Assembly: GCF_022808695.1 (NCBI RefSeq)
Contig: NZ_JAKZKW010000004.1
Coordinates: forward strand, 62,001 to 126,000
DNA from: Fundidesulfovibrio soli
GTDB taxonomy: Bacteria; Desulfobacterota; Desulfovibrionia; Desulfovibrionales; Desulfovibrionaceae
Direction of reading: 5' to 3'
Length of the DNA stretch: 64,000 nucleotides
The stretch's first letter is position 1, and every line of letters begins with the position of its first letter. The notes under the pieces were generated by a model. It was not told where the DNA came from, searched no databases, and saw only the letters and a program-made list of their open reading frames with translations. Positions 23,008 through 26,376 of this stretch are shown here, one piece after another. Both the position numbers and the translations under genes were made by a program.

Positions 23008-23385
23008 CTATTTCGCGGGAACCAGTTCCTTGCCGCAGGCGCACTTTCCGGGACTCTGGCTGACGTAGTTGCAGTCGCAACCCGCCCCGCAGCCACAGAC
23101 ATACTTTCCGGTCATGGGGAACGTCTCCTCCTCGCCCTTGACCTTGAAAATGGCATTGTCTCCTTCGATCCTGAGCACCTTCGACGGCACCATCTCCTTG
23201 TTGCACGTGCATTTCGCCGGTTTCATGGACATCGATTTGCAAGGACACGACGAGCCGCATCCGCACACGTAAACCGTATCGCCGACCTTCAGCGCAGGCT
23301 TCTGGCTTTCCGGCGCCGCCGCGAAAACGACCGTTGCCAAGGACATCAGGAAGATGACCGCCAGGCATGATACCAATTTTTTCAC
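23008..23385 (-). CDS. Secreted 12-cysteine tandem-repeat protein
   Basis: A 125-residue protein with a Sec signal peptide (MKKLVSCLAVIFLMSLATVV, cleavage near FA-AAP). The mature chain has two copies of one module, at about 38-70 and 94-125: YVCGCGxxCxC, then about nine residues, KCxC, KExVPxK. Each copy has six cysteines in the same spacing; a hydrophilic stretch (RIEGDNAIFKVKGEEE) separates them. This is not a family I can name. Dense CxC pairs suggest periplasmic soft-metal (Cu, Hg, Zn) binding or disulfide-rich packing (inference). GTG start with GGAGG upstream, and a good promoter. Confidence 0.75.
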   Translation of the reverse strand: MKKLVSCLAVIFLMSLATVVFAAAPESQKPALKVGDTVYVCGCGSSCPCKSMSMKPAKCTCNKEMVPSKVLRIEGDNAIFKVKGEEETFPMTGKYVCGCGAGCDCNYVSQSPGKCACGKELVPAK

Positions 23386-23454
23386 TTCGCACCTCCGGCT
23401 TGTTGGGGTTACCGGGCACGCCGACGCATCAGGACCTATTATTCATCATAAAAC

Positions 23455-23482
23455 TTTATCTTCGCCCAAGTCGAATTGTCAA
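23455..23482 (-). promoter_or_regulatory. Promoter of the 12-cysteine protein
   Basis: Perfect TTGACA at 23482-23477 and GATAAA at 23460-23455 on the minus strand, 16 bp apart. The region is locally AT-rich and lies about 70 bp in front of the GTG start. Confidence 0.6.
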
Positions 23483-23847
23483 CAGCACAGCGTGCCGTAG
23501 CGTTCCCGTTGCGTGCCAACCCGTTCCGCACCCAACATGCCGCATTATGGGGGAATCGCTCAAAACCGCACGGCGAATCAGCCGGGGCCGCAGGCGCCCC
23601 GCCCTCATGGCCTAGAGAACGGGCATCACGACCCGGCCCGCCCGCAGCCTCCAAATTCCCGACAGACTGAGTTGATTATTCGATTCGAGTTCACTACAGA
23701 ATAGACCAAAGCTCCATTAGGAACCGGCGGAGCAGCAATCTTGCGGTGCGCGGCCCGGCTTGCTGCGTTCTGCCCCTCCCCCGGGGACATTGCCTGGGGG
23801 GATCAGGGCGGCCCGAAAACAACACCCGACAGCACGGAGGAGCGGAG
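23483..23847. other. Gene-free stretch with a weak plus-strand promoter
   Basis: About 365 bp between divergent genes. TTGATT at 23672-23677 and TACAGA at 23695-23700, 17 bp apart, could serve the metallophosphoesterase gene. No conserved RNA or small gene was recognised in the rest. Confidence 0.35.
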
Positions 23848-24735
23848 ATGACCATGAACAGACGCGGCTTCATCAAAACCGCCGGAGTGGGCGGCGCGCT
23901 GCTGCTCACCTACCCCGGGAGCGGCGTCCTCGCTGCCGCAGGCGCGGATCAGGGCTTCAGCTTCGTGCAGTTCGCGGACACCCACGTGGGCTACGCCAAC
24001 CCCTCCGTCAACCCCGACGCCTCGGTGAGCCTGCGGAAGGGCGTGGACTGGGTGAACGCCATGACCCCCCCGCCGGACTTCGTGGTCTTCACCGGGGACC
24101 TGACCCACACCACGGACGACCCGCTGGAGCGCAGGCGCCGCTTGACCGAGTTCAAGCGCATCGCCGGCGGCCTCAAAGTCAAGTCGGTGTACTTCCTGCC
24201 GGGCGAGCACGACGCCGCGCTGGATTGGGGCGAGGCCTACAAGGAGATCCTGGGCAAGACCCACTACATGTTCCAGCACAAGGGCGTGCACTTCCTGGCC
24301 GTCGACAACGTCTCGGACCCGGCTGGCAGCGTGGGCGAGGCGCAACTGGCCTGGATCGCGGCGGAGCTCGCCCGCATCCCCAAGACCGACCCGCTGGTGG
24401 TGCTGACCCACAGGCCGCTCTTCGACCTCCTCCCCGAATGGGACTGGGCCACCAAGGACTCAGCCAAGGTGCTTGCCCTGTTGGAATCCCACCCCCACGT
24501 GACCGTGCTGTACGGGCACATCCACCAGGAGCACCACCAGCAGACCGGGCACATCGGCCAGCACGCGGGCATGAGCACGGCCTACCTGCTGCCCGCCCCC
24601 GGCTCGGTGCCCAAGAAGGCCCCCGTGCCCTGGGACGCCTCCGCGCCCTACAAGGGCATGGGCGCGAGGACCGTGCAGGCCGGCGTGACCAAGCCCGTCC
24701 CGACGTTCACCGAAAAGCCCATGGCGGGCATGTAG
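23848..24735 (+). CDS. Tat-exported metallophosphoesterase
   Basis: A 295-residue protein with a twin-arginine signal (NRRGFIKTAG, Arg5-Arg6) and a hydrophobic stretch, so it is probably folded with metals before export to the periplasm. Calcineurin-type metal motifs follow: DTH at 44-46, GDLTH at 83-87, GEHD at 119-122, TH at 187-188 and GHIH at 223-226. The third motif is normally GNHD; here Asn is replaced by Glu, unusual at a metal-bridging position. The substrate is unknown. ATG at 23848 (GGAGGAGCGG upstream); a second ATG two codons later is possible. The CuA cupredoxin gene follows at 2 bp. Confidence 0.85.
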   Translation: MTMNRRGFIKTAGVGGALLLTYPGSGVLAAAGADQGFSFVQFADTHVGYANPSVNPDASVSLRKGVDWVNAMTPPPDFVVFTGDLTHTTDDPLERRRRLTEFKRIAGGLKVKSVYFLPGEHDAALDWGEAYKEILGKTHYMFQHKGVHFLAVDNVSDPAGSVGEAQLAWIAAELARIPKTDPLVVLTHRPLFDLLPEWDWATKDSAKVLALLESHPHVTVLYGHIHQEHHQQTGHIGQHAGMSTAYLLPAPGSVPKKAPVPWDASAPYKGMGARTVQAGVTKPVPTFTEKPMAGM

Positions 24736-24737
24736 CC

Positions 24738-25106
24738 GTGCGGCGGCCATCCCTGCTGCGTTGTGCGGCGGCGCTGCTGCTGGCGTTCTGGGCCGCGCTG
24801 CCCGCCAGCCCCGCCTGGGCCCAGGGGACGGAGGAGGTGGTGCGGATCACCGCCAAGAGGTTCGACTTCGCCCCCGCCGAGATCGTGTTGACCAAGGGCA
24901 GGCCAGTGGTGCTGGAGCTGACCAGCGCGGACAGGCTCCACGGGTTCAAGTGCCCCGCCCTGGGCATCCGTGTGGATGTGGAGCCGGGCAAGGTGACGCG
25001 CGTGCCCCTGACGCCGGACAAGGCCGGGAGCTTCCCCTTCGTCTGCGACGTGTTCTGCGGCGAGGGGCACGACGAGATGTCCGGGGTGATCGTGGTCAAA
25101 GAGTGA
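24738..25106 (+). CDS. Secreted single-domain CuA cupredoxin
   Basis: A 122-residue protein: a Sec signal peptide (hydrophobic residues about 8-27, ending PAWAQ), then one cupredoxin domain. His68, Cys103, Cys107, His111 and Met114 reproduce the CuA ligand set and spacing of cytochrome oxidase subunit II (His161, Cys196, Cys200, His204, Met207): 35, 4, 4 and 3. It therefore probably binds a dinuclear copper electron-transfer centre in the periplasm. No membrane hairpin and no oxidase subunit I lie nearby. GTG start 2 bp after the metallophosphoesterase stop, with no strong ribosome site, so coupling is likely. Confidence 0.82.
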   Translation: MRRPSLLRCAAALLLAFWAALPASPAWAQGTEEVVRITAKRFDFAPAEIVLTKGRPVVLELTSADRLHGFKCPALGIRVDVEPGKVTRVPLTPDKAGSFPFVCDVFCGEGHDEMSGVIVVKE

Positions 25107-25119
25107 GGAGCCCAGGGAG

Positions 25120-26376
25120 CTAGTCGAAGTCGGCCAGCAGCGCGCCCACGTGCACCTGCCCGAACAGCACCCAGGAGGAGTACTTGCTGCGGATGCGCCA
25201 CAGGCCCTGCTGCAGCTGGTCCGAGGCGATGCCGTTGCGCAGGGCGGTGTAGGCTTCCAGGAAGGCGGCCAGGGAGTCGCAGACCTTGAGCAGATCGCCG
25301 TCCTTGGGGTCGTACTGGTCGGCGTTGTAGAAGGCCTGCAGTTCGTTCGCGCTCACCCGCTGCACTTCGCCGTCCAGGGTGGCGCAGGCCTGGAACTCCG
25401 AACCCACCGAGAGCCCCAGGAAGAAGGAGAGCCTGTCCACTAGGTCGGGGAAGCCGCCCCGGCGCAGCGGCTCCAGGATCACGCGCTCCAGCTCCAGCTC
25501 CTCGTATTCCTTGATGAGGTCGCCGATGGTCTCAACGGACTGCTTCACCGGGGAGATGATGTCGCGCGTGAGCAGCTCGGGCAGGTCGTGGAAGAGGCCG
25601 CCGAAGAAGTTGTTCTGGGCCCTGGCCGGGCAGGCCCCGATGGAGAGCGAGAAGAAGTAGGCGTAGCAGGCCACGATGAACATGTGCCCGAGCACCGAGG
25701 TCTCGGGGATGCGCGGCGTCTGGGACCAGCGCTTCTGGAAGCGCAGCTGCCCGCAGACCTGCGCGAAGTGCCCCACCGGGGTGCGGCCCTGGCCGAAGAG
25801 CCCCTCCAGCAGGTCGGAGACGCCCGCCAGGTCGGCGTTCTTCTTCAGGCCGTTGCGGAAGGATTCCTCGATGTCCATGAGTTCGGTGTCCTGCCGGTTC
25901 ATGGACTTGATGAGGTTGTACTCCCAGCCGCTGGCGTAAAGGTGGGCGGCGCTGAGGATGCGCCTGTCCAGCGAGTCCTCCTCGGTGGAGCGCAGATACG
26001 CCTGGAGCCGGTCCCAGAAGGGCTCGCCCAAACTGCGCACGCGGGGCTCCAGTTCGGAGAAGACCCAGTCGGTAAGCTGGCGGTAGTGGGCGGGGTTGGC
26101 CTTGATGCGGTAGAAAATGGGCGGCTTGATGTCGGTGATGATCAGGCGGTAGAGGTAGTCGAAGATGCCGCCCTCCACTATGCGCGCGCCAAGCTCCACG
26201 CGCTCCTCGGCGGGCATGCCGCGCGTGTTGAGCAGAAAGAGCACCCAGGCCACCATCATCTTGTGGGCCTGCTTGTCCACCTCCATGAGCTCGGTCGGCC
26301 GGAGCTTGTCGTTCCAGCGCTGCATGGAGGAGCCGGTGAAGATAAGCTGCAGGAGGGACTTGCGCACGTTTGACAT
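25120..26376 (-). CDS. HD-domain phosphohydrolase-like protein
   Basis: A 418-residue cytoplasmic protein. The segment SVLGHMFIVACYAYFFSL and, about 25 residues later, GLFHDLPELLTRDIISPVK carry the H...HD pattern of HD hydrolases, closest to the YfbR/5'-deoxynucleotidase group. The N-terminal 200 residues and C-terminal 120 residues have no recognised domain. The substrate is unknown. ATG at 26376 has a distant AAGGA. It is convergent with the cupredoxin (13 bp) and divergent from rplM. Confidence 0.75.
   Translation of the reverse strand: MSNVRKSLLQLIFTGSSMQRWNDKLRPTELMEVDKQAHKMMVAWVLFLLNTRGMPAEERVELGARIVEGGIFDYLYRLIITDIKPPIFYRIKANPAHYRQLTDWVFSELEPRVRSLGEPFWDRLQAYLRSTEEDSLDRRILSAAHLYASGWEYNLIKSMNRQDTELMDIEESFRNGLKKNADLAGVSDLLEGLFGQGRTPVGHFAQVCGQLRFQKRWSQTPRIPETSVLGHMFIVACYAYFFSLSIGACPARAQNNFFGGLFHDLPELLTRDIISPVKQSVETIGDLIKEYEELELERVILEPLRRGGFPDLVDRLSFFLGLSVGSEFQACATLDGEVQRVSANELQAFYNADQYDPKDGDLLKVCDSLAAFLEAYTALRNGIASDQLQQGLWRIRSKYSSWVLFGQVHVGALLADFD

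Follow-up and report, generated by a model that had tools for sequence, protein, structure and literature searches.

In the periplasm of Fundidesulfovibrio soli, a dinuclear-copper electron carrier of the CuA type would serve as the dedicated redox partner of an enzyme having the metallophosphoesterase (MPE) fold, the gene of which lies immediately upstream of its own. We regard this reading, which draws on sequences, gene contexts and structural models, as moderately probable. The gene concerned is carried by a 64,000-nucleotide stretch of DNA that was analysed as a whole and is hereafter called the window. The CuA domain itself is of a known kind; its use here would be new. To our knowledge, CuA centres have hardly been described outside terminal oxidases, N2O reductase and PmoD. 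A search of open PMC papers, subscription papers and preprints being outside its scope, returned no description of an MPE-CuA pair. The elements of the window to be considered are as follows.

23008-23385, − strand: cysteine-rich exported protein, which contains two repeats CGCGxxCxC...CxCxKE(M/L)VP and is encoded divergently from the MPE-CuA pair
23848..24735, + strand: calcineurin-like metallophosphoesterase (MPE) with a putative Tat signal, partner gene, 295 residues (from PF00149, pairing and fold)
24202..24213, + strand: MPE motif III, reading G-E-H-D (E120) where G-N-H-D/E is usual (from alignment)
24738..25106, + strand: CuA-type cupredoxin, 122 residues, GTG start 2 bases past the stop of the upstream gene
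24738..24821, + strand: probable signal peptide of the cupredoxin, residues 1-28, ...AWA/Q, cleavage site judged by eye
24939..24941, + strand: codon of H68, first CuA ligand (from ORF translation and alignment)
25044..25079, + strand: ligand loop C103-D-V-F-C107-G-E-G-H111-D-E-M114 (from ORF translation and alignment)

The preliminary description of this DNA had presented the cupredoxin as a secreted protein made of a single domain, without membrane anchor, in which five ligands would follow the CuA spacing of oxidase subunit II. Translation of the open reading frame confirms the ligands: H68, C103, C107, H111 and M114 are separated by 35, 4, 4 and 3 residues, which makes an exact Hx34Cx3Cx3Hx2M motif. 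The designation of this pattern as a "Hx34Cx3Cx3Hx2M CuA motif" is found in an excerpt of PMC6189053. The secreted, anchorless architecture likewise agrees with the probable signal peptide, judged by eye, and with the partial match to TIGR02866. Two Pfam families are matched over their cut-offs, Cupredoxin_1 with 54.5 bits and COX2 with 43.1 bits, and, as far as sequence comparison goes, the match is far beyond chance. The best sequence relatives in the PDB are the CuA domains of Thermus ba3 oxidase (2lln, E 6.5e-16), with the five ligands aligned. The protein is predicted to bind copper. A scan of the whole window for tRNAs found none, and the promoter scan of positions 23380-25200 gave no match on the + strand.

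An AlphaFold2 model of the cupredoxin, built with 39 aligned relatives, has pLDDT values of 94-98 per ten-residue block from residue 31 onward. A low-confidence helix covers residues 9-18; the signal peptide is followed by one domain, and the chain terminates with its final beta strand. The comparison of a predicted structure with CuA domains, which had been proposed as a check, gives Z 15.7 with 2cua (rmsd 1.3 over 94 residues, 36% identity) and Z 15.0 with 1ehk. Cupredoxins that are not of the CuA type tie with these values, namely E. coli bo3 subunit II (Z 16.0) and 4hcf (Z 15.8). Since they do, the fold alone is not proof and the CuA assignment rests on the ligands.

How strictly these ligands are kept was read from an alignment of 69 sequences, made up of the window protein, four loci from Desulfovibrionaceae and, out of the 69 loci of the genome_contigs scan, 64; L034, L036 and L047, duplicates of L029, L031 and L032, were left out, as were L100 and L102, which have no CuA match. 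The ligand conservation among close homologues on which the preliminary description had staked its interpretation was found, the His/Cys/Cys/His/Met set being shared without change by the window protein and the four homologues from Desulfovibrionaceae. In the full alignment, D104 and G108 are invariant and Phe106 is nearly so (68/69), within a ligand loop of the form C-D-x-F-C-G. An extra cysteine, Cys72, is common to the window protein and all four of its close homologues, and is found in 25 of the 69 rows. Position 68 is occupied by His in 53 rows, Met in 14 and Glu in one, with a gap in one; the Glu and gap rows correspond to the weak matches L101 and L099. A fifteenth Met68 variant is carried by a plasmid record of Cupriavidus (L135). 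On the MPE tree described below, the Met68 variants correspond to four changes, of which at least two are forced by well-supported branches, and the exchange of His for Met may therefore have occurred more than once. The presence of Met in place of H68 may alter the copper site. It could even be imagined that the CuA-like domain plays a structural part or has degenerated, and forms no CuA centre, in which case the pair would consist of a plain secreted phosphoesterase and an accessory protein. The loss of H68 to Met in those 14 relatives favours such a view; the complete invariance of C103, C107, H111 and M114 (69/69) argues against it, and we hold it to be very unlikely.

The gene had also been described as stand-alone. 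This does not hold: it belongs to a conserved two-gene unit with the upstream MPE, of which natural fusions exist. Among the 69 loci of the genome_contigs scan, 65 carry a CuA orthologue at phmmer E<1e-15, and the scan loci span Desulfovibrionaceae, other Deltaproteobacteria, Myxococcales, Nitrospirae, Phycisphaerales, and beta-, gamma- and alphaproteobacteria. The survey of genomic neighbours, which had been suggested as a check, shows an MPE directly upstream and on the same strand in 62 of these 65 loci, so that the gene is no orphan. The two frames mostly overlap by 4 bases or are separated by 0-14 bases, two wider gaps measuring 33 and 155 bases; strongly negative gaps are an artefact of over-long ORF starts. 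Three loci (L044, L048 and L053) encode a single full-length MPE-CuA protein, the fusions occurring in records of Myxococcales and Phycisphaerales. At L045, the CuA domain is in frame with only the C-terminal part of an MPE, and L098 is an abnormal fusion from which part of the cupredoxin is missing. The pairing of the MPE and CuA genes is well shown. Together with the fusions, it suggests an enzyme that needs electron transfer.

Surveys closer to the host lead to the same picture. A protein search of 99 related genomes gave CuA matches at E<1e-35 in the window genome, G001, G005, G011 and G028, all five with an adjacent MPE; weaker matches sit in longer frames, and the two that were read (window genome and G001) are CoxB. 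In the class, a CuA orthologue (E<=1e-30) occurs in 5 of 199 genomes, the window's own included, always with an adjacent MPE. In the phylum, it occurs (E<1e-40) in 5 of 345 genomes, four of which have an adjacent MPE, the exception being G128. The distribution of the pair is wide but patchy. The protein had been called unusual: it is indeed rare in its lineage, as the class survey indicates, while a CuA site outside oxidases and NosZ has a precedent in PmoD (excerpt of PMC6189053). The nearest named relative is that of Fundidesulfovibrio agrisoli (L034), with 74% identity, from which it may be inferred that the host is probably a sulfate reducer of that genus. MPE and CuA distances are correlated (Mantel r 0.337, 0/999 permutations as high, n=57, with L045, L059, L062, L069, L085, L095, L098, L099 and L101 left out), a modest value in which shared descent may have a part.

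Two further observations came out of these surveys. In Methylovulum miyakonense, two CuA genes (L067 and L086) lie about 18 kb apart on one contig, with an MPE beside one only. In addition, four weaker matches of the phylum survey (L107, L108, L113 and L119) are short proteins with a CuA-like C...C...H..M loop; a GEHD phosphoesterase frame was sought in their flanks and none was found. On the basis of their loop, they are candidates for further oxidase-free CuA proteins.

The partner enzyme matches the Metallophos family PF00149 with 47.8 bits, the cut-off being 21.5. Its Tat signal is a prediction from sequence: the Pfam TAT_signal score stays under the cut-off (19 versus 22.7 bits), the twin arginine is present in 58 of the 58 MPE rows covering the signal, and two relatives pass TIGR01409. 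The Asp/His metal ligands D44, H46, D84, H188, H224 and H226 do not vary in any of the 60-63 rows covering them. Motif III is where the family departs from the usual pattern. In classical metallophosphoesterases, this motif reads GNHD/E. Here, a glutamate replaces the metal-binding asparagine, just ahead of the catalytic His, in 62 of 62 relatives, 61 having GEHD and one (L072:7016-7912, the sole MPE of this kind) GEND; the aligned residue is Asn in Rv0805. As a control, 25 PF00149 proteins from four genomes were considered, three of the four having been picked because they hold a GEHD protein: 17 have GNHD or GNHE, one has GNND, three have GEHD and four are unreadable, which makes Asn present in 18 of the 21 readable ones. 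A motif scan of the 1.5-kb flanks located a redox neighbour beside all three GEHD proteins; around the remaining 22, its sole finds were two CxxCH frames of non-coding appearance. Besides the metal ligands, W198 is conserved in 63/63 rows of CuA-linked MPEs, and it also occurs within the WNFWT(D/E)D motif of the twelve rows linked to CCP/MauG proteins.

The fold of the MPE was examined in a model of the fusion L048 (mean pLDDT 84), built from four fusion rows, among which L045 is partial, and 24 MPE rows. The domains are confident and the list of PDB comparisons is filled by phosphoesterases: GpdQ (2zo9) gives Z 28.2, Rv0805 Z 25-26 (26.2 for 3ib7), and pig purple acid phosphatase Z ~22. Since the classical hydrolytic ligands other than the asparagine are conserved, plain hydrolysis by the MPE is possible, and this intact set of hydrolase ligands is a second point in favour of the simple phosphoesterase considered above.

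What argues most for a redox function is the company of the MPE outside the CuA loci. Relatives of the enzyme with 31-37% identity are accompanied by other electron carriers. Plasmid records with an MPE relative were examined in 8 of 17 cases. A type-1-like cupredoxin precedes the MPE on one Mycobacteroides plasmid (L136) and two Streptomyces plasmids, follows it in Caballeronia and forms one protein with it in Gemmatirosa; these amicyanin/plastocyanin-like proteins thus accompany MPE relatives at five loci, one of them fused. In the two cases submitted to NCBIfam, the best score was obtained with amicyanin, under its cut-off. On the Mycobacteroides plasmid, a Rieske protein and a sigma factor stand alongside the cupredoxin and the MPE, and a molybdopterin oxidoreductase (PF00174, L136:1-1044) lies upstream of the sigma-Rieske-cupredoxin-MPE cluster.

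In the phylum survey, MPE relatives (E<=1e-40) were found in 18 of 341 genomes. Four are with CuA, twelve stand between a di-haem cytochrome of the CCP_MauG type and a mono-haem cytochrome, and two have no redox neighbour within 1.5 kb. Pfam was applied to three of the di-haem proteins, all of which matched CCP_MauG, and to two of the small cytochromes, which were of the SoxA/TsdA type; the others were assigned by CxxCH motifs. Two more cases, in the genomes to which Sulfuriferula (L050) and a gammaproteobacterial MAG (L068) led, bring this arrangement to 14 loci in total. Beside the MPE relatives L138, L141, L159 and L160, no carrier was found in the stretch read; a gene annotated "cytochrome c assembly protein" lies upstream of that of L141, and no GEHD was seen in L159. 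A quick tree of 81 rows cut to their MPE part, which came with long-branch warnings and from which the broken or partial MPEs L059, L095, L069, L085 and L045 were left out, shows strong clustering of the partner types (10 changes for 8 labels, the shuffled mean being 33.4). Of the carrier-less relatives, L138 falls within the CCP/MauG clade and L141 within that of the type-1 partners. One-electron transfer is what these unrelated carriers share, and this is the main argument for the view that the MPE would exchange electrons, copper supply not being the point. It may be added that type-1 copper or haem proteins would hardly take the place of a merely structural subunit, which further weighs against a degenerate CuA domain.

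A role in copper handling has nevertheless to be weighed. The cupredoxin would bind, sense or deliver copper, and the MPE would be a copper-stress or copper-loaded enzyme. The copper-binding fold agrees with this, and so does the cysteine-rich exported protein encoded beside the pair, which is possibly metal-binding. Its homologues lie near the pair in L029/L034, from the same genus, and at one Nitrospirae locus (L054), and it has a sub-threshold match to the model of the copper metallothionein MymT. The regulatory genes can be read in the same sense: an ECF sigma factor is found within 3.5 kb in 35 of the 65 CuA loci, in several orientations, and a zinc-finger anti-sigma factor in 34, nine of the 30 loci devoid of sigma factor being stretches shorter than 7 kb. 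ECF sigma/anti-sigma genes often serve stress responses. The pair of the window has no ECF sigma factor beside it, the sole match in the genome being weak (E 7.9e-5) and on another contig, and the literature search for a numbered ECF group to which the sigma factor might belong gave nothing. Against copper handling stands the replacement of the copper protein by haem proteins in 12 of the 18 MPE matches of the phylum, electron transfer being their common trait. Moreover, a CuA ligand set that is kept in its entirety suggests that the site serves redox chemistry and not copper transfer. We therefore judge copper handling quite unlikely.

A further possibility is that the CuA protein is a general periplasmic carrier, shuttling electrons between c-type cytochromes or to the cell's own haem-copper oxidase, and that the MPE is merely co-expressed with it. 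The CuA gene has no adjacent MPE in L038, L074 and L086 (3 of 65 loci), nor in the phylum genome G128 (1.5-kb flanks), and CuA can consequently serve elsewhere. In 8 of 65 loci, a c-type haem protein adjoins the pair on the same strand or, at L085, is fused to CuA; this suggests that the far end of the electron chain is a cytochrome. The preliminary description had envisaged an unrecognised redox partner: a probable one can be named from context, the MPE, with c-type haem proteins as the other neighbours just mentioned. It had also stated that no haem-copper oxidase was present, which is true of the neighbourhood only, since COX1 and CoxB lie close together on contig C1 of this genome and a second COX1 on C8. 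Genome-wide, COX2 matches (E<=0.001) are limited to the cupredoxin gene and C1:131894. No NosZ scores over the family cut-off anywhere in the genome, in agreement with the earlier remark that none is nearby. Because the genome matches lie elsewhere or fail the cut-off, the oxidase subunits COX1 and COX2 (cupredoxin aside) and NosZ are absent from the window. The presence of the oxidases in the genome is compatible with a general carrier. On the other hand, the window holds no oxidase gene, the order MPE then CuA is near-obligate, and the fusions of Myxococcales and Phycisphaerales, the independent type-1 fusion of Gemmatirosa and the carriers beside most other MPE relatives all point to a specific partnership. 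A general carrier thus appears unlikely.

Some loci deserve mention here for themselves. At L085:328-1113, downstream of an MPE, CuA is followed by a C-terminal CxxCH stretch, probably a natural CuA-cytochrome c fusion, the haem part of which scores under the Pfam cut-off. At L074, the CuA orthologue without MPE precedes a gene with ten CxxCH motifs. In the genome of the window itself (G000:C1:793958-798860), a CCP_MauG-family match lies within 5 kb of a weak match to the NosZ/CuA region (L221, L222). Finally, four CuA loci have neighbours that we take to be DsrE-like.

Coming back to a dedicated redox partnership, several steps may be envisaged. The di-metal site of the MPE, with Glu at the position of the usual Asn ligand, would be redox-active and probably iron-containing. 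The CuA centre would exchange single electrons with this site, and would itself equilibrate with periplasmic c-type cytochromes. We infer such a transfer between the two proteins. In the simplest case, CuA would keep the MPE reduced and active, by a redox priming or gating comparable to that of purple acid phosphatases. In these enzymes, the Fe(III)Fe(II) form is active and the Fe(III)Fe(III) form inactive. It is equally possible that the MPE fold carries out an oxidation, the electrons of which CuA would drain. Among beta-, gamma- and alphaproteobacteria, many would probably induce the unit through the ECF sigma/anti-sigma pair. The CCP/MauG neighbours and the conserved W198 recall, by analogy, the MauG-type modification of tryptophan. 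More tentatively, and with the odds rather against it, a new class of periplasmic redox enzymes built on the MPE fold may be imagined, in which the GEHD site and the tryptophan would perform or require one-electron chemistry and to which carriers of several kinds (CuA, type-1-like, CCP/MauG) would have been recruited, some of them by fusion.

If the partnership is real, a canonical CuA protein devoted to an enzyme of phosphoesterase fold would represent a new job for the CuA centre. Furthermore, with an MPE family that has electron carriers nearly everywhere it was looked at, a fold deemed hydrolytic would have a redox-dependent branch. The natural fusions and the Met variants make both questions, the role of CuA and the redox character of the MPE, directly testable on soluble proteins.

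The comparison with known systems helps to delineate the pair. The cupredoxin resembles the CuA domain of Thermus ba3 oxidase (2cua/1ehk) by its fold and its full ligand motif, from which its family differs by the invariant Asp104, the near-invariant Phe106 and the natural His-to-Met variants of the first ligand. Unlike an oxidase subunit II, it has neither transmembrane anchor nor oxidase operon and is paired with an MPE. Its identification as cytochrome c oxidase subunit II was rejected, no COX1 accompanying the gene (those of the genome being on contigs C1 and C8), and so was that as CoxB or an oxidase fragment, TIGR02866 giving 61.5 bits for a cut-off of 147.7, over positions 119-192 of 202 only. 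The protein also resembles the CuA domain of NosZ, since it aligns with the C-terminal region of NCBIfam TIGR04246 (E 1.8e-14); a nitrous oxide reductase or a fragment of NosZ was discarded, the catalytic domain being absent and the score 52.9 bits for a cut-off of 625.

PmoD is a periplasmic non-oxidase protein reported to form a CuA site, for which it uses other ligands; according to an excerpt of PMC6189053, this site belongs to a homodimer, and the protein has a transmembrane helix and goes with methane or ammonia monooxygenase. Unlike PmoD/AmoD as presented in that excerpt, the cupredoxin has the canonical motif on one chain and no C-terminal transmembrane helix.

As for regulation, the RpoE4 regulon of S. 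meliloti comprises, according to PMC3511301, the sulfite oxidase SorT, a cytochrome c and pseudoazurin. The likeness, an ECF sigma/anti-sigma pair next to a periplasmic redox unit that includes a cupredoxin, is an analogy only. The Moco oxidoreductase of L136 and the DsrE-like genes are suggestive of a link to sulfite oxidation as in RpoE4; this was not retained, the word "phosphoesterase" having 0 matches in the text of PMC3511301. On the enzyme side, finally, the MPE is close to GpdQ, Rv0805 and the purple acid phosphatases by its fold and its Asp/His metal ligands, and is set apart from them by the glutamate of GEHD, the conserved W198, the putative Tat signal and the coupling to genes of electron carriers.
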